From: Campylobacteraceae bacterium
Lineage (GTDB): Bacteria > Campylobacterota > Campylobacteria > Campylobacterales > Campylobacteraceae
Reading direction: 5' to 3'
DNA length: 13,502 nt
Assembly: GCA_031290675.1 (NCBI GenBank)
Contig: JAITNC010000172.1
Span: 1 to 13,502 of the forward strand
The position numbers and the translations under genes are program-made. Under the pieces are notes generated by a model that saw only the letters and a program-made list of their open reading frames with translations, was not told where the DNA came from and did not search any database. Position 1 is the stretch's first letter; each line of letters opens with the position of its first letter. Below, piece after piece: positions 1 to 13,502 of this stretch.

Positions 1-1223
1 TAACTAAGAGCTTGTGCGATATCCTCTCTCAAATCCTCTATATCTTCTATGCCGACAGATAGGCGCAGCATATTTGGCTTGATGCCAAGGCTCATCTTCT
101 CCTCGTGAGAGTTCAGAGGGTAGATGACAAAGTATGGGGATACTATCAGCGTTTTGTTGTCGTGGATATTTGTGGCACGCCTGATGATTTGGAGCTTGTC
201 CATAAACTTGTAGGCGGCTTTTTCGCTCTCAACCTCAAATGTCAATATAGAACCACAGCTTTTAAACTGTTTTTTTGACAATTCGTAAAACGGCGAGCTT
301 GAAAGCAGCGGATAATTGACCTCGTTTATCCCCTTCACGCCTTGCAGCCACGACGCTAAAGCGAGGGCGTTTTCACAGGCTCTGTCTATGCGAAGTGCCA
401 TAGTTTCAAGCCCCAAAGTTTGCATGTAGGCATTGTGCGGGCTCAGGACTGCGCCCAGAGCTTGAAAAATCTCTTTTCGCACTTTGTATAAAAACGCCAT
501 TGGCCCGACTTTGGCGTAGTATTTGTCTAAAAGCTTCACTTTTTTCCACTCAAAAATCCCGTGGTCTACGATAAGTCCGCCCACGCTCGTGCCGCCGCCG
601 CTTATAAATTTTGTAGACGAAAGCACCTCTACATCAATGCCGAACTTTTTAGCGTCAAACAAGTAAAATGGCGTCATAGTCGTATCAAGCACGAAAGGAA
701 CATCGTGCGAATGCGCTATTTTGGAGAGTTTTTCAAGGTCTGCTATCTGAAGCTGCGGATTGCTCACTGTTTCCAAAAACAGCAGCCTTACACGCTCATC
801 AAACGCCGCCTCTACGGCTTTTTCGTCCAAAACATCTACAAATTTCACCGTTACGCCCATATTTGGCAGTGTATTTTGGAAAAAAGAGAGCGTATGTCCA
901 AAGAGACGATTTGTCGTTATGACACTCTCACCTGCCCTTACCAACGTCAAAATAGCGGTCGTAATAGCCGCCATACCGCTTCCGAGAGCCACTACGCCGA
1001 TAGAATTTGTGAGAGCTTTGATGTGCAGCTCAAAATCCTCAACCGTAGGGTTGCTTGAGCGGCTGTAAACGTGTCCCATTTTTTTGCCGGCTGATACTAT
1101 GCTCAGCTCTTCGGAGGAGTCAAACTCATACGCCGCGTTTTCATAAATAGGCATTCTAAGTGCGCCGTGAGCGTCTTTGACGTGTTTTTTGATATGTAGT
1201 GATTTTGTGATAAAGCCTTTCAT
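1..1223 (-). CDS. metY: O-acetylhomoserine sulfhydrylase (MetY-type, PLP-dependent), essentially complete
   Basis: Cys/Met-metabolism PLP enzyme, expected to join a sulfur donor to O-acetylhomoserine and form homocysteine in the cytoplasm. Translating the minus strand from ATG at 1223 gives 407 codons with no stop. The window ends two bases into codon 408, which reads TA, so a stop (TAA or TAG) is likely and only one base is missing. Visible motifs are YSRSSNPT (53-60, substrate/phosphate region), GSGMAA (81-86), the LDTT stretch with the PLP-pyridine Asp (D180), and SSTKFISGGGTSVGG with the Schiff-base lysine K205. The GGGTS loop and the FGHT segment resemble O-acetylhomoserine sulfhydrylases more than cystathionine beta-lyases. 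A GAGGGG ribosome site (1230-1235) sits 6 nt before the ATG. It is divergent from the sulfate operon. In the Wolinella system MetY accepts the HcyS thiocarboxylate, and the hcySFD genes downstream suggest the same here. Cystathionine gamma-synthase or methionine gamma-lyase activity cannot be excluded. Confidence 0.85.
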   Translation of the reverse strand, partial: MKGFITKSLHIKKHVKDAHGALRMPIYENAAYEFDSSEELSIVSAGKKMGHVYSRSSNPTVEDFELHIKALTNSIGVVALGSGMAAITTAILTLVRAGESVITTNRLFGHTLSFFQNTLPNMGVTVKFVDVLDEKAVEAAFDERVRLLFLETVSNPQLQIADLEKLSKIAHSHDVPFVLDTTMTPFYLFDAKKFGIDVEVLSSTKFISGGGTSVGGLIVDHGIFEWKKVKLLDKYYAKVGPMAFLYKVRKEIFQALGAVLSPHNAYMQTLGLETMALRIDRACENALALASWLQGVKGINEVNYPLLSSSPFYELSKKQFKSCGSILTFEVESEKAAYKFMDKLQIIRRATNIHDNKTLIVSPYFVIYPLNSHEEKMSLGIKPNMLRLSVGIEDIEDLREDIAQALS

Positions 1224-1524: not shown

Positions 1525-1553
1525 TTGACAATAAAGAAAATTTTGTCTATAAT
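1525..1553 (+). promoter_or_regulatory. Perfect-consensus sigma70-type promoter for the operon
   Basis: TTGACA (1525-1530), a 17-bp spacer and TATAAT (1548-1553) match the textbook housekeeping consensus at every position. Transcription should start near 1560, giving a leader of about 23 nt that contains AAGGAG (1571-1576) and ends at the sbp ATG. It is the only strong rightward promoter found in front of the gene array. Confidence 0.8.
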
Positions 1554-1582: not shown

Positions 1583-2584
1583 ATGAGTTTAGCAAAACAC
1601 ATTTTTATCTGGTCTATAGCGTTGGCGACTTCACTATTGCAAGCCGCCCAATTTGAGATACTAAATGTATCTTACGACCCTACGAGGGAGTTGTACAAAG
1701 AGTACAATGAGGCGTTTATCAAGCATTATAAAGCGCTGAGCGGCGATGATGTAACCGTCAGACAATCACACGGCGGTTCAGGCGGACAAGCGAGAAGCGT
1801 TATAGAGGGTCTTGAGGCTGATGTAGTTACATTGGCTCTTGGAGGCGATATAGACGCTATAGTTGAGAAATCAAAGAAAATATCTGTAGATTGGCAGAAA
1901 AGGCTTAAAAACAACAGTTCGCCTTACACATCTACTATCGTATTTTTGGTCAGAGCGGGCAATCCTAAAAAGATTAAGGATTGGGACGATTTGGTAAAAG
2001 ACGGCGTGAAAGTCATCACTCCAGACCCAAAAACTTCCGGCGGAGCGAGATGGAATTATCTTGCGGCTTGGGCGTACGCTTTGAAAAAATTTAACAATGA
2101 CGAAGCGAAAACAAGAGAGTTTGTAGCAAAACTTTTCAAAAATGTTCCTATACTTGACGCTGGCGCTAGGGGTTCAACAAACACATTTGTTCAAAAAGGT
2201 TTGGGAGATGTACTTTTGGCATGGGAAAACGAGGCATTTTTATCTATCAACGAGCTTGGCAAAGGCAAATTTGAGATAATAGTCCCAAGTCTTAGTATCC
2301 TAGCAGAGCCTGCTGTAAGCCTTGTAGATGAAAACATCAAGAAAAAAGGCACTGAAAAAGTCGCTACCGAATACTTAACCTATCTATACTCAAAAGAGGG
2401 TCAAAGAATAGCCGGTAAGAACTATTACAGACCAACAGACCCTGAAGTGGCTAAAGAGTTTACGGAGCTTTTCCCAAAACTTGACCTTGTTACTATAGAT
2501 GGAGCGTTCGGCGGTTGGACAGAGGCTACGAAAAAGCACTTTGCTGACGGCGGAGAATTTGATAAGATTTACACAAAAAAATAA
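1583..2584 (+). CDS. sbp: Sulfate ABC transporter periplasmic substrate-binding protein
   Basis: Periplasmic receptor that captures sulfate (possibly also thiosulfate) and delivers it to CysTWA. It has 333 residues, close to the usual 329-338 for Sbp/CysP. The N-terminus is a Sec signal peptide: K5, a hydrophobic core at 7-19, and probable cleavage after A21 or A22. Family hallmarks follow: [12 protein letters not shown] (28-39), [40 protein letters not shown], the GARGSTNTF and [10 protein letters not shown] segments, and a C-terminal [18 protein letters not shown] motif. The ATG is preceded by AAGGAG at 6-nt spacing and follows the consensus promoter closely, so it is the first gene of the operon. 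Only 8 bp separate its TAA from the next small ORF. Sbp and CysP cannot be told apart reliably by eye, but the link to APS-forming genes favours sulfate. Confidence 0.93.
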
Positions 2585-2592
2585 GGATATAT

Positions 2593-2691
2593 ATGGCGAG
2601 GGCTTTAAAAAGATTTGTAATTTTTATCAATGTTTTGGGGCTTTCGCCGATACTTATCGCGGGGTTGTTTGCGGGAGGCTTTGATGAGTAA
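2593..2691 (+). CDS. Small single-span membrane protein (32 aa), candidate
   Basis: A 32-codon ORF filling the gap between sbp and cysT. It has an ATG start, an AAGGA site (2583-2587) overlapping the sbp stop, and a TAA that overlaps the cysT start in ATGAGTAA. The peptide has a basic N-terminus (MARALKR), one hydrophobic span of about 20 residues (VIFINVLGLSPILIAGLFAG) and an acidic tail (GFDE), so it would sit in the inner membrane with its N-terminus probably inside. I do not recognise the family. Its position suggests either an accessory subunit of the sulfate permease or a leader ORF whose translation is coupled to cysT. Support comes from the ribosome site, stop/start coupling and clear membrane character. 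There is no homology evidence, so expression is inferred. Confidence 0.6.
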   Translation: MARALKRFVIFINVLGLSPILIAGLFAGGFDE

Positions 2692-4063
2692 GACTATCAA
2701 AAAGCCAAACATCAAAACAGCCTTGCTGTTCATATCAGCATTGACAGCCATATCGGGCGTATTTGCCGCATTTGCCGACTTGAGGGCGTTTGTATCGCTC
2801 ATCTTGACATCTGGGCTGTTCGCTCTAGTGGCTTTCAATATCATAAGAGTCCAATACGACGCCTCAAAAACCAAAACTACACTGTTTGCGATATCATTAG
2901 TCATAGCATTTTTGAGCATTGTCGCTATATTTATAGATGTGAGGTTTTCCGTAACGCTGATTTTGATATCGGGGTTGTTCGCCCTGATAGCCCTAAATAT
3001 CGGCAATTTCACGATAAGCCAAATCATCATCACTGTAGTTATTTTTCTCATAATATCCGCTATATTGTTCGTAGTTTATCAAAATCCGCAGAACTCTTTA
3101 GCGTGGGTATCGCTCATCATTTTTATCATCATAGCAGTGTTGGCAAACAAGACAGGATACAAAAAAAGCAATCCGAAACTTCCGGGTTTTAGTATCACGC
3201 TTGGACTTTCGCTCACGTATATGTCGCTTCTTATACTTATTCCACTAAGTGCGTTGGTACTTTACGCTATGCAGATGCCATTTGAAAAGTTTTGGACAAC
3301 TGTAACGGACGACAGAATTTTGACAGCTTTAAAGATATCTTTTACAGCAAGCCTCACAGCGGCTCTTCTCAACTGCTTTTTTGGGCTTGTGATAGCGTGG
3401 ATTTTGACCAAATACGACTTTGTGGGCAGACGCATAGTAGACTCCATAGTAGACTTGCCATTTGCCGTACCTACGGCTGTAGCGGGTATATCGTTGGCAT
3501 ATATCTTTTCGCCAAACGGCGTTTTGGGTGGTTTTTTGCAAACATTATCGTTGAAGTTGCAATCATTCGCTCCATATTTCTCGCCTGAAGTCGAGGGTAG
3601 TTTCGGGCAGTTTTTGCAAAATATAGACCTCGGTATCTCTTACTCAAAAACCGGCATAGTGATAGCTCTCGTGTTTATCGGACTTCCTTTTATCGTGCGG
3701 ACAGTTCAGCCCGTCATAGAAGAACTTGATAAAGAGTTGGAGGAAGCGGCAAGCTCTCTTGGCGCAAATTTTTATCAAATTTTTCGCAAAGTCATATTTC
3801 CCTCTATCTATCCGGCACTCCTGACGGGATTTGCTTTGGCGTTCGCAAGAAGCCTCGGCGAGTATGGCTCTGTCATATTTATATCAAGCAACATTCCTTA
3901 CGAAACGGAGATAGTCCCGCTGCTTATCGTCAAAAAACTGATGCAGTTTGACTATGTTGGGGCGAGTGTTATAGGCGTGATAATGCTTGTGGCGGCGTTT
4001 GTGCTGTTGCTTCTTATCAACTTCTTGCAATCCTTCGCCAGACGCAGAAAGAAGGGAGTTTGA
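2684..4063 (+). CDS. cysT: Sulfate ABC transporter permease CysT with long N-terminal membrane extension
   Basis: Inner-membrane permease that forms the sulfate channel with CysW. ATG 2684 was chosen because GGGAGG (2673-2678) lies 5 nt upstream; an upstream in-frame ATG at 2630 gives an N-terminus unlike a membrane protein and has no such site. The product has 459 residues against about 277 for E. coli CysT. The family core starts near residue 166 (LPGFSITLG) and contains the LPLxxL-like LIPLSALVL, the DLPFAVPTAVAG segment, the EAA loop (EEAASSLGA, 353-361) that contacts CysA, and SLGEYGSVIFI. The additional roughly 165 residues hold about five to six hydrophobic segments, including two tandem homologous units (12-53 and 65-106; 22 of 42 positions identical by hand alignment). 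Its TGA overlaps the cysW ATG (TGATG). The role of the extension is unknown. Confidence 0.9.
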   Translation: MSKTIKKPNIKTALLFISALTAISGVFAAFADLRAFVSLILTSGLFALVAFNIIRVQYDASKTKTTLFAISLVIAFLSIVAIFIDVRFSVTLILISGLFALIALNIGNFTISQIIITVVIFLIISAILFVVYQNPQNSLAWVSLIIFIIIAVLANKTGYKKSNPKLPGFSITLGLSLTYMSLLILIPLSALVLYAMQMPFEKFWTTVTDDRILTALKISFTASLTAALLNCFFGLVIAWILTKYDFVGRRIVDSIVDLPFAVPTAVAGISLAYIFSPNGVLGGFLQTLSLKLQSFAPYFSPEVEGSFGQFLQNIDLGISYSKTGIVIALVFIGLPFIVRTVQPVIEELDKELEEAASSLGANFYQIFRKVIFPSIYPALLTGFALAFARSLGEYGSVIFISSNIPYETEIVPLLIVKKLMQFDYVGASVIGVIMLVAAFVLLLLINFLQSFARRRKKGV

Positions 4064-5217
4064 TGAAACGGTATATAACTATATTTTTACTTGGGCTTGC
4101 GGCTATTTTGCTCGCACTAAATATATTTGAATTTAGCGGTTTTTTCAAGATATACAAACATTTGGCGTTTTTGATAGCTGTTTTGCTCATTTTTATCAAC
4201 ACAAGCCACGGGTGGCAAAAGAGCGTGATACTGCTTGCTACAGCCGTGCTTATCTCTTTTTTATACACTCTCATCGCAGGAAATGTGCAATGGGCTATCG
4301 TTGATGTGATATTTGCCGCTGTAGCCATCATCGCCATCGCTACGGACTCCACGAGGATTAAAGTTATCTCGGGCAGCAAAGAACCGCCCTTTATAAAGCC
4401 TCTGCTCATCACGATAACATTTCTATTTTTGGCGGTTTTTGTATTTTTGCCTCTGTATACCATCTTTACGCTAGCGTTCGCAAACGGCGCTACTACATAC
4501 CTCTCCTCCATAAAAGAGAGCGATGCGTTGTCGGCTATCAAGCTGACTATCATAGTAGCTGTTATCTGCGTGCCTGTAAATACATTTTTTGGCGTGCTGC
4601 TGGCGTGGGCTATAGCGAAGTTTGACTTCAAAGGCAAAAATATCATCACGACCTTGATAGAAGTGCCTTTCGCCATATCGCCCGTCATAGCGGGACTTAT
4701 ATTTATCCTGCTGTTCGGCTCATTTGGCTGGTTTGGACATTTTTTGGTAGAGCACAACATAAGAATAGTATTTGCGATACCGGGGCTGTTTTTGGCTACT
4801 GCTTTCGTAACATTTCCATTTGTAGCCAAAGAGTTGATACCACTGATGCAAGAGATGGGCAAAGATGACGAAGAGGCGGCTTTGACGCTCGGCGCTAGCG
4901 GTTTACAGACATTTTTCAAAGTTACGCTGCCAAATATAAAATGGGGACTTTTATATGGAGTCGTGCTCACAAACGCCCGTGCTATGGGAGAGTTTGGCGC
5001 AGTCGCTGTAGTTTCGGGACTTATAAGAGGCGTTACGATGACGATGCCTCTGCACATAGAGGTGCTTTATAACGAGTATCTCTTCTCAGCCGCTTTCTCA
5101 ATAGCGTCCCTGTTGACGTTTCTCGCTCTTGTAACTTTGGTCGTGAAGACTGTCATTGAGCATTTTATAGCTTTGCAGAGAAAACTTGTCGTATTTGATG
5201 TAAGTACAAAACAGTAG
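4063..5217 (+). CDS. cysW: Sulfate ABC transporter permease CysW with N-terminal membrane extension
   Basis: Second permease subunit of the sulfate importer. ATG 4063 shares TGATG with the cysT stop and follows AAGGGAG (4052-4058); a TTG one codon upstream is less likely. It has 384 residues, compared with about 290 for E. coli CysW. The conserved core begins around residue 110 and includes VPVNTFFGVLLAWAIAKF, EVPFAISPVIAGL, the EAA loop (DEEAALTLGAS, with E271-A272-A273), the LPNIKWGLLYGVVLTNARA stretch and MGEFGAVAVVSG, all typical of CysW rather than CysT. The extra N-terminal ~105 residues carry roughly four hydrophobic spans (5-22, 34-46, 54-72, 77-93) and show no obvious similarity to the CysT extension. 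Tandem stops TAG-TAA end the gene, 18 bp before cysA. Confidence 0.92.
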   Translation: MKRYITIFLLGLAAILLALNIFEFSGFFKIYKHLAFLIAVLLIFINTSHGWQKSVILLATAVLISFLYTLIAGNVQWAIVDVIFAAVAIIAIATDSTRIKVISGSKEPPFIKPLLITITFLFLAVFVFLPLYTIFTLAFANGATTYLSSIKESDALSAIKLTIIVAVICVPVNTFFGVLLAWAIAKFDFKGKNIITTLIEVPFAISPVIAGLIFILLFGSFGWFGHFLVEHNIRIVFAIPGLFLATAFVTFPFVAKELIPLMQEMGKDDEEAALTLGASGLQTFFKVTLPNIKWGLLYGVVLTNARAMGEFGAVAVVSGLIRGVTMTMPLHIEVLYNEYLFSAAFSIASLLTFLALVTLVVKTVIEHFIALQRKLVVFDVSTKQ

Positions 5218-5235: not shown

Positions 5236-6294
5236 ATGAGCATAGAGATTTCACATATTAGTAAAAATTTTGGTACATTTGCCGCACTTGATGATATAAA
5301 TCTTGCTATTCCCGACGGCGAGCTGACAGCATTATTGGGACCTTCCGGGTCGGGAAAAACAACTCTTTTGCGCATCATAGCCGGACTTGAAAACCCCGAC
5401 ATCGGAACTATCAGCTTTTTTGGGGAAGACTCTACGAGCAAACCCACAAAAGACAGAAAAGTCGGCTTTGTTTTTCAACATTACGCACTTTTTAAACATA
5501 TGAGCGTTTTTGAAAATATAGCTTTTGGACTCAAAATACGCCCGCACAAACCAAGCAAAAATGAGATAAAAGAGAAGGTTTACAAACTTTTGCAGATGGT
5601 ACAGTTAGAGCCTCTCGCAAATAGATTTCCAAGCGAGCTTTCCGGCGGTCAAAAACAGCGCGTAGCGTTGGCGAGGGCGTTGGCGGTTGAGCCTAAAGTC
5701 TTGCTTTTAGACGAGCCTTTTGGCGCACTTGATGCTAAAGTGAGGCAAGAGTTGAGGCGCTGGCTCAGGTATCTGCACGACGAGATACATATCACGAGCG
5801 TGTTCGTAACCCACGACCAAGAGGAGGCTTTGGAAGTTTCCGATAAGATAGTTATCCTAAACAAAGGCAAGATTGAGCAGATAGGAACTCCCGAAGATGT
5901 TTACGACAATCCCGCAAATCCGTTTGTGTATGGATTTTTGGGAAATGTAAATCTATTTCACGCTAGAATGATTAAAGGCTCTTTGAACCTTGAGCGCGGC
6001 AATAAAAACGATGACGATGACATCTCATTTTTCATACGACCGCACAATGTCAAGATAGCTTTCTCAAACGAGGACGGCAAAGGCATAGAGGCGAAAATCA
6101 TAGCGCACAGGATTTTGGGCGCACACGTGAGAATAGAGCTCAAGACTATCATCGGTGAGAAAAACATTGAGGCAGATGTGGATAAAAAACAGTGGAATGA
6201 GATAAAAACACAGCAGCCAAATTTTGTCTATATTAAATTTATAGAGGCCAAAATATATGCACACGACGAAAGCTGGAGCGACTATGTCATATAA
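5236..6294 (+). CDS. cysA: Sulfate/thiosulfate import ATPase CysA
   Basis: Cytoplasmic ATPase that powers sulfate uptake through CysT/CysW. ATG 5236 has AAGGA 7 nt upstream; the TTG one codon earlier is rejected. The 352 residues carry Walker A GPSGSGKT (35-42), Q-loop Q81 in FVFQHYALF, the signature LSGGQKQR (135-142), Walker B VLLLDEP (155-161), the D-loop GALD and switch H193 in [29 protein letters not shown] is typical of CysA among the CUT1-like ATPases. A C-terminal regulatory region of about 110 residues (TOBE-like, with [10 protein letters not shown]) completes the protein at usual length. Its last 11 bases overlap the favoured cysH start, suggesting coupled translation. Confidence 0.95.
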
Positions 6295-6955
6295 TGATTT
6301 GCTTCAACAAATCACGAGCAAGATAAAAGGCAAGGTAGCCCTCTCTTTCAGCTATCAGGCTGAAGATGTGGTGGTTTTACATCTGCTGCTGCAATGCGGC
6401 GTAAAATCTTTGGAGGTTTTCACGCTTGATACGGGCAAACATTTTCCACAGAGTGAGGAGTTTCACAAAGAGGTTGAGGAGTTTTTTGGTATCACTATCA
6501 AAAGATACCTGCCAAATCAAAACAGCGTGAAAAGCTTGGAAAAAAAGCTTGGGCTTTGGGGTATGAGAGACAGCTTGGAAAACAGACATTTGTGCTGTCA
6601 TATCAGAAAAGTAGAACCCCTAAAACGGGCATTGAAAAACAAAAGCGCATGGGTTACAGGACTTCGTGCTTCACAATCCGTAACAAGAAGCGACTTGAAA
6701 ATAGTAGAGTTTGATGAAAATTTTTCTCTATTTAAGATAAATCCTATCGCTTTTTGGAGTGAAAAGCAAACATTTGACTATATAAAAGAGTATAATCTCC
6801 CTCTCAATTCCCTATATCATCAAGGCTTCAAAAGCATAGGCTGCGCTCCCTGTACAAGAGCTGTCGGCAAAGACGATGATGTGCGCTCAGGCAGGTGGTG
6901 GTGGGAAGAGCCGGAACACAAAGAGTGCGGATTGCATATAAAGGAAAAAGCGTGA
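6284..6955 (+). CDS. cysH: Assimilatory APS reductase, [4Fe-4S] type
   Basis: Thioredoxin- or glutathione-dependent reductase that converts adenylyl sulfate (APS) to sulfite and AMP. 223 residues from ATG 6284, which has GGAG 5 nt upstream. An in-frame ATG at 6257, inside cysA, with a weak GAGG is the alternative. The fold is a PP-loop adenylyl-binding domain ([26 protein letters not shown]). Cluster ligands C104-C105 (in [14 protein letters not shown]) and C187/C190 (GCAPCTR) are those of APS reductases; PAPS reductases such as E. coli CysH lack them. [26 protein letters not shown] and catalytic C215 also match. No APS kinase gene is present, which agrees with APS as the substrate. Its TGA overlaps the cysD GTG. 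Specificity is inferred from cysteines and context; PAPS could be a minor substrate. Confidence 0.93.
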
Positions 6956-7830
6956 ACAAGATAGAGAAGCTGGAATCGCAAAGTATTTTTATCATACGCG
7001 AGGCTTACAAATCATTCAAAAATGTCGGTATGCTGTGGTCTATCGGCAAAGACAGCACGGTGCTTTTATGGCTCGCCAAAAAGGCGTTTTACGGGCATGT
7101 GCCGTTTGAGTTGATACACGTAGACACAAACTACAAAATCCCGCAAATGATAACTTATAGAGATAAGATAGCCAAAGAGTTGAAACTAAGGCTTGTGGTC
7201 GGTCAAAACAAAGAGGCGTTAGCGAACAAAAGGACTTTCGTGGACGGGTTAGACAGGATATCCTGTTGTAAGGAACTCAAAAGCAACGCCCTGAAACACA
7301 CGCTTGACGGCACTTGGGAAAGACGTGTATACGACCCCAAAAAAGACGCTTGGGAAGTACAGCAAAGCAGCGAGGCTTACAACGCCGTCATAGTCGGAGT
7401 CAGAAGCGATGAGGAGGGAAGCCGCTCAAAAGAGAGGGTTTTTTCCGCCAGAGATGAAAAGAGCGAATGGGACGCCAGCACGCAGCCACCCGAACTTTGG
7501 AATCTCTACAAGACAGAGTTCGCCCCCAAAACGCACGTGCGCGTACACCCTCTTTTGGAGTGGACGGAGCTAAATATCTGGGAATATATAGAAAAAGAGA
7601 AAATCCCCGTCATTCCGATATATTTTGACCAAGGGGACGGCAGCAGATACCGCTCTTTGGGCTGTTATCCGTGTACTACCCCCGTGGCGTCCACTGCCAA
7701 AAATCCTTCACAAATCATAGAAGAGTTGGTCAGCGGCAAATTTAAAAACATAGCCGAACGCTCGGGTCGTGCGCAAGATAAAGAGGGCGGCGGCACTTTG
7801 GAAGCTTTGAGAAAAGAGGGGTATATGTGA
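6952..7830 (+). CDS. cysD: Sulfate adenylyltransferase subunit 2 (CysD)
   Basis: Catalytic subunit of ATP sulfurylase, making APS from sulfate and ATP with CysN. The start is GTG 6952 in GTGA with the cysH stop, because AAGGA lies 6 nt upstream and the N-terminus [18 protein letters not shown] aligns with CysD; an upstream frame start at 6895 is discarded. The 292 residues (E. coli 302) show the PP-loop SIGKDS (30-35), the [16 protein letters not shown] segment, [20 protein letters not shown] and the C-terminal [13 protein letters not shown] plus [15 protein letters not shown]. An oddity is C105-C106 in SCCKELK and C238-x-x-C241 in GCYPCTTP. E. coli CysD lacks the pair and has only one cysteine in the second motif, and the set parallels the cluster ligands of the adjacent CysH. 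TGATG links it to cysN. Confidence 0.93.
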
Positions 7831-9191
7831 TGAGCGACAAGCACAACATAGAACGAATGAATATAGTCATAACAGGCCACGTAGACCACGGCAAAAGCAC
7901 GCTTGTAGGGCGGCTCTTGGCCGATACTGCCTCACTGCCGAAGGGCAAGCTTGACAGCCTTAAAGACAGGTGCGAGAAAAACGGCAGGGTTTTTGAGTAT
8001 TCTATGCTTTTGGACGCTCTTGAAGATGAGCAAAAACAGGGCATCACGATAGACAGCGCACGTATATTTTTCAAAAGTAGGCTTCGAGAATACATCATCA
8101 TAGACGCCCCCGGACACATTGAGTTTTTGAGAAATATGCTCAGCGGAGCGTCGAGAGCCGTAGCGGCGGTTTTGGTCATAGACGCCGTTGAGGGCGTAGC
8201 CGAAAACTCCAAACGGCACGGACTTCTTTTATCACTGCTCGGCATCTCGCAAGTGTTGGTAGCCATCAACAAACTTGATTTGTTTGGTTATGACGAGAGC
8301 GTTTTTAGAAAAATCAAAAACGAGTATGAAAAATACTTGGAAGAGCTCAAAGTAAAACCTTTGGCGTTCATACCGGTAAGTGCGAGAGAGGGCAAAAATA
8401 TCATCACAAATGCCCCCGAGATGCCTTGGTATCAGGGTAAAACCATACTTGAAACACTTGACAGTTTTCACAACCTGCCTTCAAATGAAAACTCATTTTT
8501 CGCTATGCCGCTGCAAGATGTTTATCGTTTTAGCAACGACAATGACGATAGAAGGATTTACGCCGGCACGATAGTCAGCGGAGAGGTAAAAAAGGGCGAT
8601 TTGGTACGATTTTTGCCTTCAAACAAAGAGGCGCACATAGACGATATACAGACTTGGAGCGCACCTGCAAAAGAGAGCGCCAAAGCGAACGAGGCGAGTG
8701 GTTTTACGCTCAAAGAGGAGATATACGTCAAAAACGGCGAAGTGATGATAAAATCAGACGAAAACGCCCTTGTGTCGGTCAGCTCAAAGATAAGAGCCAA
8801 CCTCATTTGGCTTGGACGTCAGCCGCTTATTTTTCACAAAAACTACCTCTTCAAACTCGGAAGCGCAAAGGTAAATATGCGGCTTGAAAAGATAGAGCGG
8901 GTTTTGGGCGATGAGAGTGTGCAAAACCACAACGACCTCAAAAGAAATGAGTGCGGCAGCGTGATACTCTCCCTTTCGCACAAGATAGCTTTGTCGTCGT
9001 TTTATGACAATGCCGCTTTGGGAAGGTTTGTCATAGTTGATGACTACGACGCTGTGGGCGGCGGAATTATACTGGAAAGTCTAAAAGATGACGAAGAAGA
9101 GAAAAAAAGCAGTTTTGAGGACGAGCTTTTCGCACTTCTGCGCAAGCACTTTCCGCATAGATTTAATGACAATATTTCATATCAGATATAG
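7830..9191 (+). CDS. cysN: Sulfate adenylyltransferase subunit 1, GTPase (CysN)
   Basis: EF-Tu-like GTPase whose GTP hydrolysis drives APS formation by CysD. ATG 7830 overlaps the cysD TGA; a GTG one codon earlier (7827) is possible, and AGAGGGG at 7815-7821 serves either. The 453 residues contain G1 GHVDHGKST (16-24), the [16 protein letters not shown] switch (60-75), G3 DAPGH (92-96) and G4 NKLD (147-150), followed by the two beta-barrel domains (for example [20 protein letters not shown]). Length matches stand-alone CysN (E. coli 475). There is no C-terminal APS-kinase (CysC) domain, so the protein makes APS only, consistent with the APS reductase upstream. The stop TAG overlaps the ribosome site of hcyS, 8 bp before its ATG. 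Confidence 0.94.
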
Positions 9192-9199
9192 GAGAAACA

Positions 9200-9409
9200 A
9201 TGAACATCATCATCAATGGCGAGGCGAAAAATTTTACGCAAAGCAGCCTCTCAATAAGCGAGCTTTTAAAGGTTGAGAAGGTTGAGATGCCAGATATGGT
9301 TTCTGTACAGTTAAATGACGATTTTTTGAGGCAACACGAGTATGAAAGCACGCTTTTGAAAGAGAACGACAGCGTGAACTTTTTGTATTTTATGGGAGGC
9401 GGTGCGTGA
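9200..9409 (+). CDS. hcyS: Ubiquitin-like sulfur carrier protein HcyS (C-terminal GGGA)
   Basis: Small beta-grasp sulfur carrier of 69 residues with a ThiS-like pattern: N-terminal strand MNIIINGE, a mid SISELLKVEKV helix, VSVQLND, and a final strand NDSVNFLYF before the flexible tail. The tail is GGGA (66-69) instead of the bare GG of ThiS. In the Wolinella succinogenes homocysteine pathway, HcyS is made with such a terminal Ala, trimmed by HcyD, adenylated by HcyF and turned into a thiocarboxylate. The matching hcyF and hcyD genes directly downstream make this assignment much stronger than ThiS. ATG has AGGAG (9190-9194) at 5-nt spacing. Its last codons contain the ribosome site for hcyF, and its TGA overlaps the hcyF GTG. 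Confidence 0.88.
   Translation: MNIIINGEAKNFTQSSLSISELLKVEKVEMPDMVSVQLNDDFLRQHEYESTLLKENDSVNFLYFMGGGA
9394..9399 (+). promoter_or_regulatory. Shine-Dalgarno of hcyF inside the HcyS C-terminal codons
   Basis: GGGAGG, 6 nt before the hcyF GTG at 9406, is made by the ATG GGA GGC codons for Met-Gly-Gly at the reactive end of HcyS. One stretch is therefore constrained both as the sulfur-accepting tail and as a translation signal. Confidence 0.75.
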
Positions 9410-10212
9410 GAGATTTTAGCGACGAGGAGTTAGAGCGCTACTCCAGACATATCATACTTGAAGATGTCGGCATTGAAGGGCAAGAAAAAATCCTTGAAAG
9501 CAAAGTCCTCATCATCGGAGCGGGAGGGCTTGGCTCTCCGATAGCTCTCTACCTTGCGGCGGCGGGCGTTGGCGAGATAGGCATAGTAGACGGCGATGTC
9601 GTAGACCTGAGCAACCTTCAAAGACAGGTGATACACACAACGAGCGAAGTCGGAACGCCAAAAGTGGAGTCTGCTAGGCGAAAAATGCTCGCTATAAATC
9701 CAAACGTCAAAGTCAATACTTACTACACGATGATAAGTGCGGACAATATTTTGGACATCATCACGCCTTACGACTTTGTGATAGACGGAACTGACAATTT
9801 CGCTACAAAATTTCTCATAAACGATGCTTGCGTTTTGGCGAAAAAACCCTATTCGCACGGCGGGATTTTGAGATTTGCGGGGCAGAGTATGACGATAGAA
9901 CCATACAAAAGTGCGTGTTACGCTTGCGTATTTAACGCTCCTCCTCCGCCAAACGTCGTGCCTACCTGCTCATCTGCGGGTATACTCGGCGCGGTCGCCG
10001 GAATGCTCGGCACGATACAAGCGGCTGAAGCTTTGAAGTTCATCACAGGTGCGGGAACGCCTCTGTACAATACGCTTCTTAGTTTTGACGCCAAAAATAT
10101 GTCTTTTAGAAGTGTGAAATTTAACAAAAATCCACGATGCAGAGTTTGCGGCGAACACGGCATCACAAGCTTAAGCGACTATGAGCAGGCTGTTTGCGAG
10201 GTCAAAAAATGA
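9406..10212 (+). CDS. hcyF: Sulfur-carrier adenylyltransferase HcyF (ThiF/MoeB/E1-like)
   Basis: E1-like enzyme that activates the C-terminal glycine of HcyS with ATP, so sulfide can displace AMP and give the thiocarboxylate. 268 residues, starting at GTG 9406 in GTGA. It shows YSRHIILEDVGIEGQEKI (12-29), nucleotide-binding GAGGLGS (38-44), VDGDVVDLSNLQRQ with N70, R73 and Q74, K86, GTDN with Mg-binding D130, zinc pairs C171/C174 and C245/C248, and C188 in PTCSSAG at the position of the ThiF/MoeB active-site cysteine. There is no rhodanese domain, unlike MoeZ-type fusions, so sulfur should come directly from another donor. By sequence alone MoeB or ThiF would fit; the placement between hcyS and hcyD decides the name. 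ATGA joins it to hcyD. Confidence 0.87.
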   Translation: MRDFSDEELERYSRHIILEDVGIEGQEKILESKVLIIGAGGLGSPIALYLAAAGVGEIGIVDGDVVDLSNLQRQVIHTTSEVGTPKVESARRKMLAINPNVKVNTYYTMISADNILDIITPYDFVIDGTDNFATKFLINDACVLAKKPYSHGGILRFAGQSMTIEPYKSACYACVFNAPPPPNVVPTCSSAGILGAVAGMLGTIQAAEALKFITGAGTPLYNTLLSFDAKNMSFRSVKFNKNPRCRVCGEHGITSLSDYEQAVCEVKK

Positions 10213-10607
10213 TAAAAATCCCAAAAGATATATATGAAGCCATCATACAACACGCCAAAGATGACGCCCCGATAGAGGCTTGCGGGTATTTAGCCGGCGT
10301 TGTTGGCGAAGTGAAAAGCATATATAAGATGAAAAACACGGACAATAGCGAGGAGCATTTCAGCTTTGACCCGCAAGAGCAGTTTGGCGCTTTCAAAGAC
10401 GCCGCAAAGCGTGGTGAGCGGCTTATCGCCTGCTACCATTCGCACCCCGCAACTCCCGCACGTCCTTCACAAGAGGACATCAAACTCGCGTACGACCCAA
10501 ACATAAGCTACATCATCGTATCTTTGGCAGGTGGCAGGGTTGATTTGAAATCATTTAAGATAAAAAGCGGCGAGGTTACAAAAGAAGAAGTGGAGGTATC
10601 ACAATGA
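10209..10607 (+). CDS. hcyD: JAMM/MPN+ metalloprotease HcyD
   Basis: Zinc peptidase of 132 residues acting on the sulfur carrier. In the Wolinella pathway HcyD first removes the terminal Ala of HcyS and later hydrolyses HcyS-homocysteine to free homocysteine. The full JAMM signature is present: general-base E23 in PIEACGYLAG, H77-S78-H79, then seven residues to S87, and D90 (HSHPATPARPSQED). ATG 10209 was chosen because it makes ATGA with the hcyF stop and has GAGG (10198-10201) at 7-nt spacing; an upstream extension by five codons has no support. The length is that of a minimal Mec+/JAMM domain such as M. tuberculosis Mec, which pairs with the CysO carrier. The coupled ATGA start of sir follows. 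Confidence 0.88.
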   Translation: MIKIPKDIYEAIIQHAKDDAPIEACGYLAGVVGEVKSIYKMKNTDNSEEHFSFDPQEQFGAFKDAAKRGERLIACYHSHPATPARPSQEDIKLAYDPNISYIIVSLAGGRVDLKSFKIKSGEVTKEEVEVSQ

Positions 10608-12904
10608 GCGGATATAACATACCCAAAGCGGTGGAGAACGATTTTACAACGTTCAGACAGCAATACAGCGATTTTGTCAGCGGCAAGATGGACGCTCTTC
10701 TCTTCAAAACTATTCGTGTTCCGTTTGGCATTTACGAGCAGAGAGAAGCGAACACTTATATGGTCAGGGTCAAATTGGCTGGCGGCGTCATCACGCCAAA
10801 ACAGCTGCTTGAGCTTTCTGATTTGGCTACGACTTACGCTTCCTCCTCACTGCACGTTACGACAAGAGGCGGCGTACAGCTGCATTATGTGAAGATAGAG
10901 GACTTTTTAAAAGTCGTGGAGCGTCTGCACAAGATAGGTCTTACGGGCAGAGGCGGCGGCGGAAATACTGTGCGAAATATCACAGCCGACCCATACGCCG
11001 GAGTCGCCAAAGACGAGCTGTTTGACGTAACGCCTCACGCCTTAGCTCTCACTTCCAAGATGTTGGAGCTCAAAGACTCATACGCACTTCCAAGAAAGTT
11101 CAAGCTATCTTTCAGCGGCAGCAGTGCAGATAGAGGTGGAGCGACATTTATAGATGTTGGTTTTATAGCCAAGATAAAAGACGGCGCAAAGGGCTTTCGT
11201 GTTTTCGTGGCTGGCGGTATGGGAGCGAAGTCAAAAACAGGACAGCCATTTTTGGACTTTTTGCCCGAAGGTGAGATATTTTTGCTCTCGCAAGCTATCA
11301 AAGAGTTGTTTGACGAGAGAGGCAACAGAAAAAACAAACACGCCGCAAGACTTAGATTTTTAGTGGAAGAGTTGGGGCTTGAGGAGTTCAGAAAACTCGT
11401 AGAAGCCAAAGTAGAAAAGGTAAAATCCGAAAACAAGTGGCAGATAGAGTTTGAAAAGCTGCACGAAGTCGCTCCTTTGAAAAACGCCTCTTTGCCATTG
11501 CTGAAAGTTGAGGAAAAACTTTGGTGGGACAGATATATCTACGCTCAAAAGCAAGATGGGTATTTCAGTGCGAAAGTGCCGCTCGCTTTGGGCGACATAC
11601 CAGCGCAAAAAGCCAAAGAGTTAGCGTCTTATCTTGAGAAAATATCAGGCGAGCGAGATGTTATTCGTTTTGGAAGCGACCAAAATATATATCTCAGAAA
11701 TCTCACAGCCGATGAACTTATCGCCCTATATCCGATACTCAAGGGTATCTCGCCTGTCGTTACAAAGCCCGCCATCATCGGCGATAGCGTAGTTTGCACC
11801 GGAGCGGCGACTTGCCAGCTTGGTATAACCATACCGCGAGGAGCGATAAAAGCGATAGAACAGACACTCATCAAAGAGGGTGTGGAGATTGAGCGGCTCA
11901 AAGGCTTCAAGATACATATGTCAGGCTGTCCAAACAGCTGTGGCAGACACGCCATAGCCGACCTTGGCTTTTTTGGCAAAGTCTTGCGGGAAGGGGCGAA
12001 CCCATACCCTGCGTACAATATACTCGTGGGAGCGAAAATAGGCGAAAATATCACAAGATTTGGCAAAAAAATAGCCGATATCAGCGCATATCATCTGCCC
12101 GCATTTGTCGCGCGGCTGCTCAAGATTTGGATAAGCGTGCAGGAAAAACACGCCTCATTTGCCGACTGGATAGACGCCGAGGGCGAGCAGAGAGCTATAG
12201 ATTTGGCTGAGAGTTACGCAGTCGTGCCATCATTTGATGAGGATAAAAATCCATATTATGACTACTCGGCAAAAGAGATATTTTCACTCAAAGGCAGAGG
12301 TGCAGGAGAGTGTAGTGCGGGAATGTACGACTTGATAGAAGCGGACAAAAAAGCCCTCAGCGTGGCGTTGGGCGAGAAGGCAGACGCTGCAAACTTCGCA
12401 AACATAAGACTGCTCGCCACAAGAATGCTGCTTGTAACAAGAGGCGAGGAAGCACGGAGCGAAAAAGAGGTCTTGGCGGCTTTCAAAAAACTTTTCATTG
12501 AAACGAAACTTATCAGCTCTGAGTATGCCTCGTCTTTGGAAGGCGAGGCAGGCAAAGATGTCCTGAAACTCGCCAACGCCGTGATAGAACTTTACGGCAC
12601 TATGGACAATACTCTCAAATTTGCCGCAGAGTTAAACAAACCAACCGCGCCTCAAGTGAATGACGAGAGCCGCAAGAGCGCCGATAGATTTAAGGATTAT
12701 CGCGGCGTGGCTTGCCCTATGAACTTTGTGAAGACAAAAATGGATTTGGCGCAGATGAAAAGCGGCGAGAGTTTGGAGATATTTTTGGACGACGGCGCAC
12801 CTATAGAAAATGTCCCGCGCTCCGTATCGGCTGAAGGCCACACGATAGAGGAGCAGACGCAAAAAGCCGAAGGGTATTGGCTCGTCAAAATTCGCAAAAA
12901 ATGA
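10604..12904 (+). CDS. sir: Siroheme sulfite reductase with C-terminal helical and TusA domains
   Basis: Reduces sulfite to sulfide by six electrons. 766 residues; ATG 10604 has GGAGG (10592-10596) 7 nt upstream and overlaps the hcyD stop. The first ~520 residues form the two-fold ferredoxin-like plus siroheme/[4Fe-4S] architecture: TTRGGVQ (86-92), GNTVRNITADP with R124, and cluster ligands C398-x5-C404 and C442-x3-C446 (MSGCPNSCGRH). No flavoprotein partner (CysJ) is nearby, so electrons probably come from ferredoxin. Beyond the usual end lies a helix-rich segment (~560-680, starting near GAGECSAGMYDLIEAD) that I cannot name, then a TusA-like sulfur-relay domain (~690-766) with active C704 in RGVACPMNFVKTK. 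A nitrite reductase is formally possible, but the sulfur operon argues for sulfite. The cysG ATG overlaps its TGA. Confidence 0.9.
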   Translation: MSGYNIPKAVENDFTTFRQQYSDFVSGKMDALLFKTIRVPFGIYEQREANTYMVRVKLAGGVITPKQLLELSDLATTYASSSLHVTTRGGVQLHYVKIEDFLKVVERLHKIGLTGRGGGGNTVRNITADPYAGVAKDELFDVTPHALALTSKMLELKDSYALPRKFKLSFSGSSADRGGATFIDVGFIAKIKDGAKGFRVFVAGGMGAKSKTGQPFLDFLPEGEIFLLSQAIKELFDERGNRKNKHAARLRFLVEELGLEEFRKLVEAKVEKVKSENKWQIEFEKLHEVAPLKNASLPLLKVEEKLWWDRYIYAQKQDGYFSAKVPLALGDIPAQKAKELASYLEKISGERDVIRFGSDQNIYLRNLTADELIALYPILKGISPVVTKPAIIGDSVVCTGAATCQLGITIPRGAIKAIEQTLIKEGVEIERLKGFKIHMSGCPNSCGRHAIADLGFFGKVLREGANPYPAYNILVGAKIGENITRFGKKIADISAYHLPAFVARLLKIWISVQEKHASFADWIDAEGEQRAIDLAESYAVVPSFDEDKNPYYDYSAKEIFSLKGRGAGECSAGMYDLIEADKKALSVALGEKADAANFANIRLLATRMLLVTRGEEARSEKEVLAAFKKLFIETKLISSEYASSLEGEAGKDVLKLANAVIELYGTMDNTLKFAAELNKPTAPQVNDESRKSADRFKDYRGVACPMNFVKTKMDLAQMKSGESLEIFLDDGAPIENVPRSVSAEGHTIEEQTQKAEGYWLVKIRKK

Positions 12905-13502
12905 ACGTCCTCCCCATAGCCCTCACCCCAAAAAATGTCCTCTTAATAGGCGCTGGGGACGCCGCCGCTCTGAAGGCGAAAAATATCCTTCAGAGCGATT
13001 GTGCGCTCGTCATCATAGCCCAAGAGATAAAAAACCCATACTTTGCGGACAAACAAGTAACCCTAAAACCTTTTGGATTTGAGTTTTTAAAAGAGAGAGA
13101 TTTTGACATTGTCATTGACGCTTCGGGCGATGAGAGCTTGTCAAAGCAGCTTTGGGAGAGCCGCAAACGATTTGGTTATCTGCTCAACTGTGTTGATAAG
13201 CCGCAATTTTGCGACTTTTACTTCGGGGCGAACTTCAAAAACCACGACCTTAGCGTATCTGTAAGCACGGGCGGAAGCTCGCCCAGATACGCCCAATACG
13301 CACGGGACTTGGTGGAAGCCGTACTACCGCAAGAGCCAAAAGAGTTTTACGCCGAGCTCAAAGAGCGCAGAGACAAAGGCGACACAAGCGTGAGGGTCAA
13401 AAAAAGCGTTGGAGATGTCTATCTGATAGGCTGCGGCACGGGCAGCAGGGACAACTTGAGCCTCAAAGCGTTGAAAGCCTTAAAACTCGCCGATGTCGCT
13501 CT
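12901..13502 (+). CDS. cysG: Siroheme synthase (SirC-like domain fused to uroporphyrinogen-III methyltransferase), 3' truncated
   Basis: Supplies siroheme to Sir. Two hundred codons are visible from ATG 12901 (ATGA with the sir stop), open to the window end. No clear Shine-Dalgarno precedes it, so translation probably depends on coupling. The N-terminal precorrin-2 dehydrogenase/ferrochelatase-like domain has the NAD-binding VLLIGAGDAAALKA (13-26), DIVIDASGD, LLNCVDKPQFCDFYF with D99 at the place of the CysG catalytic Asp, and STGGSSPRYA (122-131). From about residue 171, GDVYLIGCGTGSRDNLSLKA starts the methyltransferase domain. Its glycine motif reads GCGTGS where most family members have GAGPGD. 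The remainder of the methyltransferase is outside the window, so whether CysG is complete and active cannot be judged. Confidence 0.88.
   Translation, partial: MNVLPIALTPKNVLLIGAGDAAALKAKNILQSDCALVIIAQEIKNPYFADKQVTLKPFGFEFLKERDFDIVIDASGDESLSKQLWESRKRFGYLLNCVDKPQFCDFYFGANFKNHDLSVSVSTGGSSPRYAQYARDLVEAVLPQEPKEFYAELKERRDKGDTSVRVKKSVGDVYLIGCGTGSRDNLSLKALKALKLADVA

Follow-up and report, generated by a model that had tools for sequence, protein, structure and literature searches.

We found that a sulfate-assimilation operon in a Campylobacteraceae genome most probably carries a protein-thiocarboxylate homocysteine module of the Wolinella succinogenes HcyS type, working alongside a free-sulfide route. 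The stretch of DNA analysed here (the window; 13,502 nucleotides) is the whole of contig C221 of a 1.44-Mb draft genome that is 81% complete (G000). Its genes run in the order cysPTWA-HDN-hcySFD-sir-cysG on the plus strand, with metY divergent on the minus strand. An initial annotation had described a complete HcyS-HcyF-HcyD module in a sulfate operon with metY divergent, and had pointed to the linkage of uptake, activation, reduction, siroheme synthesis and carrier genes in one locus; both descriptions agree with the gene run, the open reading frame coordinates and the intact domains reported below. We observed directly the identity of the genes, their intact motifs, their linkage, the placement of MetY beside the W. 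succinogenes enzyme and the co-occurrence of the parts. Each chemical step of the HcyS route, by contrast, we infer from the work on W. succinogenes, as described in papers that cite it.

The window opens with metY (1 to 1223, minus strand), an O-acetylhomoserine sulfhydrylase (OAHS) placed in an HcyS-linked clade by its match to PDB 3ri6 and by a tree; its stop codon is missing at the contig edge, where 407 codons (1223 to 3) are followed by two bases (TA) of the next codon. The divergent intergenic region between metY and cysP (1224 to 1582; 359 bases) contains a dispersed repeat and a 12/12 sigma-70-type promoter match ahead of cysP (TTGACA-17-TATAAT, 1525 to 1553, plus strand), which is a consensus match only, from a scan that counts weaker matches too and gave 1 where 1.8 were expected in shuffles. 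On the plus strand follow genes for a cysP-like solute-binding protein, assigned to sulfate by context (1583 to 2584; Pfam SBP_bac_11), the permease cysT with about 170 extra N-terminal residues (2684 to 4063; TIGR02139 above cut-off), the permease cysW (4063 to 5217; BPD_transp_1, named from position) and the ATPase cysA (5236 to 6294; named by eye from sequence and position). These are followed by cysH, a PAPS/APS reductase (6287 to 6955; PRK02090 above cut-off, TIGR02055 at 227 bits against a cut-off of 235), and the sulfate adenylyltransferase genes cysD (6952 to 7830; NF003587 above cut-off) and cysN, the GTPase subunit (7830 to 9191; TIGR02034 at 331.8 bits against a cut-off of 336.1). 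The hcySFD genes sit between cysN on the 5' side and a sulfite/nitrite-reductase-type gene, sir (10604 to 12904), on the 3' side, and four-base start/stop overlaps chain hcyS, hcyF, hcyD and sir (GTGA at 9406, ATGA at 10209 and ATGA at 10604). The contig end cuts the last gene, a cysG-type siroheme synthase (12901 to 13502, plus strand; TIGR01470 above cut-off). Rfam at gathering thresholds gave no RNA families in the window.

The carrier gene hcyS (9200 to 9409, plus strand, ATG start) encodes a 69-residue ThiS-like protein (Pfam ThiS, E 2.3e-9) whose C-terminus, ...NFLYFMGGGA, extends at least one residue past the glycines (FLYFMGGG-A). The E1-like adenylyltransferase HcyF (9406 to 10212, plus strand, GTG start; 268 aa) has Pfam ThiF as its sole Pfam domain (E 7e-85) and lacks a rhodanese domain. 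Its closest PDB relatives are ThiF, MoeB and Uba4, all of which have a cysteine at the site of HcyF Cys188; by analogy with ThiF, this residue may form a persulfide or acyl-disulfide. Cys188, two CxxC pairs (171, 174, 245, 248) and Cys264 near the C-terminus were invariant in 81/81 aligned sequences (the window's and those of 80 named loci among the matches listed), which is not a mark of the module because these loci include HcyF relatives outside it. HcyD (10209 to 10607, plus strand, ATG start; 132 aa) is a JAMM metalloprotease (Pfam Prok-JAB, E 1.5e-26) with the motif HSHP-x6-S-x2-D and an upstream EACGY intact; the metal ligands, in the stretch HSHPATPARPSQED and the upstream Glu, are intact.

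The same domain matches could describe an ordinary ThiS with a MoeB or ThiF partner, serving thiamine or molybdopterin synthesis and lying in a sulfate operon by chance. NCBIfam would in fact label these parts of the module so, its ThiS model scoring the carrier at 49.8 bits (cut-off 37.45) and its MoeB model scoring HcyF at 281.2 bits (cut-off 266). However, the genome has its own ThiS (contig C233, ending FVGGG with no tail), its own MoaD (C103, ending CGG with no tail) beside what by eye is a MoaE-like ORF, and another E1-rhodanese protein (C155), and HcyS-type carriers combine FLYFMGGG and a tail with a JAMM, Sir and usually MetY. Because the genome holds separate ThiS and MoaD carriers for those roles, we rejected the ThiS or MoeB identity, and we regard this explanation as highly improbable.

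To describe the distribution of the module, we used 60 genomes: the window's own and 59 relatives. Genes for hcyF (at least 75% identity) were present in 16/60, and in 16/16 of these the carrier lay upstream, the JAMM downstream and the reductase next (in G007, just the start of sir is on the hcyF contig). The adjacency of carrier, JAMM and reductase to hcyF is therefore not due to chance. Pfam Prok-JAB was found in 17/60 genomes, these 16 and G013, whose JAMM belongs to another system. HcyS-type MetY (at least 46% identity) occurred in 14/16 genomes with hcyF versus 3/44 without (G003, G024 and G031; p 4e-9), and a Sir-TusA protein in 16/16 versus 1/44 (G031, a fragment; p 1e-13), both p values being overstated because related genomes are not independent. 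The HcyS-type MetY is in pieces in G002 and G007, and Sir-TusA is split over two contigs in G002, G007 and G037. The two hcyF genomes without HcyS-type MetY, G008 and G049, count against our preferred explanation: the G008 contig stops within cysG, and in G001 metY sits behind cysG (L048, L041); G049 has only other MetY types.

A scan of named genomes kept 80 loci, none of them from W. succinogenes, among at least 545 HcyF relatives. The protein-bound sulfur route is widespread, the 80 HcyF matches listed including Campylobacterota, Bacteroidota, Spirochaetota, Fibrobacterota and Margulisbacteria. The nearest by HcyF, among the matches listed, are Campylobacteraceae and Helicobacteraceae MAGs, five of them at 81 to 89% identity, whose sample names we take to refer to termite-gut surveys. 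Within these 80 loci, again among the matches listed, a FLYFMGGG-type carrier was present in 73, a JAMM match in 72 (70 with the full motif and two cut short) and a MetY of more than 36% identity within the flanks in 47. Among the misses, three loci (L071, L092 and L104) begin where the contig does, at a point within metY or ahead of it. Four HcyF relatives at 62 to 68% identity (L057, L060, L085 and L116) had neither carrier nor JAMM in their flanks, with TusA beside the one in L060, and at three loci (L054, L062 and L063) the carrier was present while the flanks held no JAMM; both sets count against our explanation. A fourth carrier locus without a JAMM, L089, is cut downstream, its stretch ending 200 bases after hcyF. 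We rejected the proposal that all close HcyF relatives are module members, given the four loci that lack both carrier and JAMM.

The initial annotation held that the GGGA end of HcyS needs removal of one Ala. A survey of carrier ends upheld the trimming, not the specific single Ala. FLYFMGGG-type carriers were obtained from 86 of 95 examined loci, leaving 79 distinct carriers after removal of copies; one ended FIYFMGGG and the others FLYFMGGG. Residues of many kinds extended beyond this end in 78/79, with tail lengths of 0 (n=1), 1 (n=33), 2 (n=19), 3 (n=11) and longer, up to 22. A trimmable piece past GGG is thus nearly universal, and Ala is not the conserved feature. The single exception (L056) stops exactly at GGG though it adjoins a JAMM, and counts against our explanation. 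The 33 one-residue tails comprised A (19), Q (6), K (3), C (3), E (1) and R (1), and with non-Ala in 14 of 33 we rejected the idea that Ala is specifically selected. The overlap of stop and start codons may shape the tail residue: in 30/38 one-residue-tail rows, copies included, the TGA stop is preceded by a codon whose third base is A or G, which creates an overlap with the following ATG or GTG. The solved structure closest to HcyS, PDB 2k5p/3cwi, is labelled ThiS; it shares the FLYFMGGG end, so the label probably hides a carrier of the HcyS type.

As a control, we examined the ends of other ThiS-family carriers in the 60 genomes, for which a search gave 126 places; 16 HcyS carriers, five places ending in TPG rather than GG and one below the cut-off (G050:C1:1339534) were left out. 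GG-ended carriers continued past the glycines in 10/30 cases in JAMM-encoding genomes versus 0/74 in genomes without a JAMM (Fisher 1.2e-6), and in 7/27 versus 0/74 (p 5e-5) when three carriers fused to an E1 domain were removed. Eight of the ten tailed carriers are CysO-like (ending IAGG) and two are ThiS, for which alone (n=2) the p value of about 0.05 is suggestive only. These two ThiS proteins have SI (L171, in G037) and A (L188, in G055) after GGG, and both genomes encode HcyD, whose JAMM activity may trim ThiS there too. A C-terminus that stops at the glycines, as in the window genome's own ThiS (GGG) and not in HcyS (GGGA), is accordingly a feature of ThiS with exceptions. IAGG-plus-tail carriers were found in eight other genomes (G001, G002, G006, G007, G008, G009, G013 and G049); the window's own genome (81% complete) gave three ThiS-family matches, none of this type. 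In G013, one locus (L037, contig C3, 2 to 4055) holds in a row part of a JAMM, an E1-rhodanese protein with a carrier fused to it, a protein of 314 aa that looks by eye like an encapsulin of family 2, and a SufS-like cysteine desulfurase. Judging from these genes, the genus has a second sulfur-carrier system, of a CysO-like kind.

MetY connects the locus to the W. succinogenes enzyme. Against PDB, the window MetY matched 3ri6, the crystallised W. succinogenes OAHS, at E 1.3e-186, and the next structure at 1.4e-87. We built a maximum-likelihood tree of 76 MetY-type proteins (midpoint root for drawing only), in which the window MetY joined 3RI6 with support of 100/100, together with eight further MetYs from its genus and family. 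All 54 HcyS-linked rows fall in the enclosing group of 56 (99/87). Canonical OAHS proteins are excluded from it and make up their own group of 19 (98/94), and the one remaining row, L155_284, sits on a very long branch apart from either group. The label "HcyS-linked," which for named loci was assigned in part from similarity to the window MetY, needs 3 changes in the tree because two of the 56 rows, L038 (G024) and L151 (G031), come from genomes without detected hcyF. Independently of the label, 18/18 MetY-like ORFs of at least 330 aa and at most 1.5 kb from hcyF in named loci fell inside the group, and five canonical MetYs at 2.6 to 7.3 kb from hcyF all fell outside it. In the alignment, an insert with the motif SYH(G/N) was present in 19/19 canonical OAHS proteins and 0/56 rows of the HcyS-linked group. 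This insert and the FLYFMGGG-plus-tail end are simple marks by which each kind of MetY, and each kind of carrier, can be told from the other.

The reductase gene sir (10604 to 12904, plus strand) encodes Pfam NIR_SIR domains and a C-terminal TusA domain (residues 698 to 765, about 12695 to 12898; whole-protein E 1.1e-18), a domain that the initial annotation passes over. The best solved relatives of Sir are nitrite reductases, which counts against our explanation, so sulfite is predicted as its substrate from context. TusA, fused or separate, lay in the flanks of 63 of the 80 named relatives, 18 times fused to the reductase, and the Cys-Pro was retained in 63/63 TusA matches, all among the matches listed. 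The presence of TusA beside such genes is not new: in the 2006 survey, neighbourhoods of this kind (class 4e) always include SirA (TusA), with a predicted role like that of rhodanese (PMC1779556). Among the papers listed by literature searches, judged mostly by title, none was more specific than that paper on a link between TusA and sulfite reductase, or on JAMM, carrier and methionine together.

In the mechanism that we favor, HcyD would trim HcyS after GGG, and HcyF with ATP would adenylate the exposed glycine. Sulfate would yield sulfur by way of CysDN, CysH and the reductase with its TusA tail, and this sulfur would then turn the HcyS acyl-adenylate into a thiocarboxylate; MetY would join the thiocarboxylate sulfur to O-acetylhomoserine, and HcyD would cut homocysteine off HcyS. 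Most likely, the module would run alongside, not instead of, a free-sulfide route through CysK and a canonical MetY; we infer this parallel route, like the role of TusA, from gene content. A canonical OAHS of 422 aa is encoded on contig C128 (nearest solved relative 4oc9, E 1.2e-156 over 417 residues), in a locus (L136, G000:C128:2500-9000) with cysK at 1083 to 2009 (by eye and Pfam PALP), an Rrf2-like regulator gene at 2022 to 2435 (by eye) and this metY at 2455 to 3723, on the minus strand. A MetX homologue on C135 scored 373.7 bits, below the NCBIfam cut-off of 500 that was reached by 0 of the 15 genomes and 14 controls searched. By identity and Pfam score, a second, canonical MetY is present in 15/16 hcyF genomes, the window's included; of these enzymes, only the window's own and that of G049 entered the tree. 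The one hcyF genome that lacks it, G023, has a completeness of 66%.

These genes bear on the idea, implied by the initial annotation, that this bacterium makes homocysteine through the module and by no other route. The tight linkage to sulfate uptake and reduction and the confinement of Sir-TusA almost entirely to hcyF genomes would suit a sole route, but the canonical OAHS beside CysK and the Rrf2-like regulator, and the second MetY in 15/16 hcyF genomes, speak against it, and we consider it unlikely. At the level of the whole cell, there is no support for the claim that sulfide arrives at homocysteine bound to a protein instead of free, because a canonical OAHS beside CysK, with a MetX homologue, is encoded in the same genome. 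Given the second MetY in 15/16 genomes, the HcyS module probably adds to free-sulfide assimilation and does not replace it. For the same reason, loss of the carrier alone may have no visible effect, and methionine auxotrophy of an hcyS mutant, the proposed test, is confounded. The coexistence with free-sulfide genes in 15/16 genomes makes the question "why two?" testable. One possible, though doubtful, reading is that TusA takes sulfur from the siroheme of Sir as a persulfide and delivers it to the HcyS adenylate held by HcyF, never free, while the second MetY and CysK serve outside sulfide only; there would then be two homocysteine routes with separate sulfur sources, marked by the canonical-MetY insert.

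The proposed module can be compared with known systems. A 2011 JACS paper reportedly gave the biochemistry of the W. succinogenes HcyS pathway, and the cluster in that work is said to comprise a carrier with a post-glycine residue, an E1 without rhodanese, a JAMM, MetY, sulfate genes and a sulfite reductase. On these details, the two loci are alike in clustering the tailed carrier, the E1 without rhodanese, the JAMM, the 3RI6-type MetY, the sulfate genes and the reductase gene; they differ in organism, and a second canonical MetY with CysK is documented for the window's genome. In the CysO-Mec-CysM system of Mycobacterium tuberculosis, a carrier thiocarboxylate supplies the sulfur and a JAMM frees the amino acid; thiocarboxylate carrier and JAMM release are thus shared, whereas the product there is cysteine, made by cysteine synthase. 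The cassette itself was catalogued in 2006 by Iyer, Burroughs and Aravind as operon class 4e, with W. succinogenes included (Table 1; PMC1779556). According to that paper, class 4e comprises a ThiS/MoaD-like protein, a JAB, an E1 without rhodanese, a sulfate ABC transporter, ATP sulfurylase, PAPS reductase, sulfite reductase, OAHS and adenylylsulfate kinase (PMC1779556). Our locus shares the carrier, JAB, E1, TusA, sulfate transport and reduction genes and OAHS. In the window, TusA forms part of the reductase protein, and adenylylsulfate kinase is absent. The chemistry in W. succinogenes was reported in 2011, as described in papers that cite it (PMC5764234, PMC6225789, PMC6271081). The initial annotation was thus right both to match the locus to the W. 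succinogenes protein-thiocarboxylate methionine pathway, with MetY grouping with 3RI6 and the same cassette in PMC1779556, and to say that the pathway is not new, having been predicted in 2006 and, reportedly, studied biochemically in 2011. The locus adds one more case to an already described system.

The 2006 authors also suggested a protein modifier function for JAB-linked E1 systems (PMC1779556). Here, that would make the carrier a ubiquitin-like modifier and the JAMM its deconjugase, in keeping with the architecture of E1, carrier and JAMM and with the only NCBIfam match of HcyD, a desampylase model (77.7 bits against a cut-off of 130). There is, however, no E2 among the identified window ORFs, the genes are linked to metY and sir, and the MetY group occurs with the carrier. 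We consider a conjugation system very unlikely indeed and retain the homocysteine module as the preferred reading.

Finally, we noted several features of the surrounding DNA. The dispersed repeat between metY and cysP (1404 to 1436; about 33 bases) is matched by 40 other places in the genome at 83 to 91% identity, with 40 of 85 candidates scored. CysT (459 aa) and CysW carry long extra hydrophobic N-terminal stretches (2684 to 3200 and 4063 to 4400), and the CysT frame is far shorter, at 281 to 339 aa, in some relatives (L043, L047, L053 and L055). Elsewhere in the window's own genome, the E1-rhodanese protein on C155 (L034, 4447 to 6559) is followed by an ORF that, by eye, is serine acetyltransferase-like.
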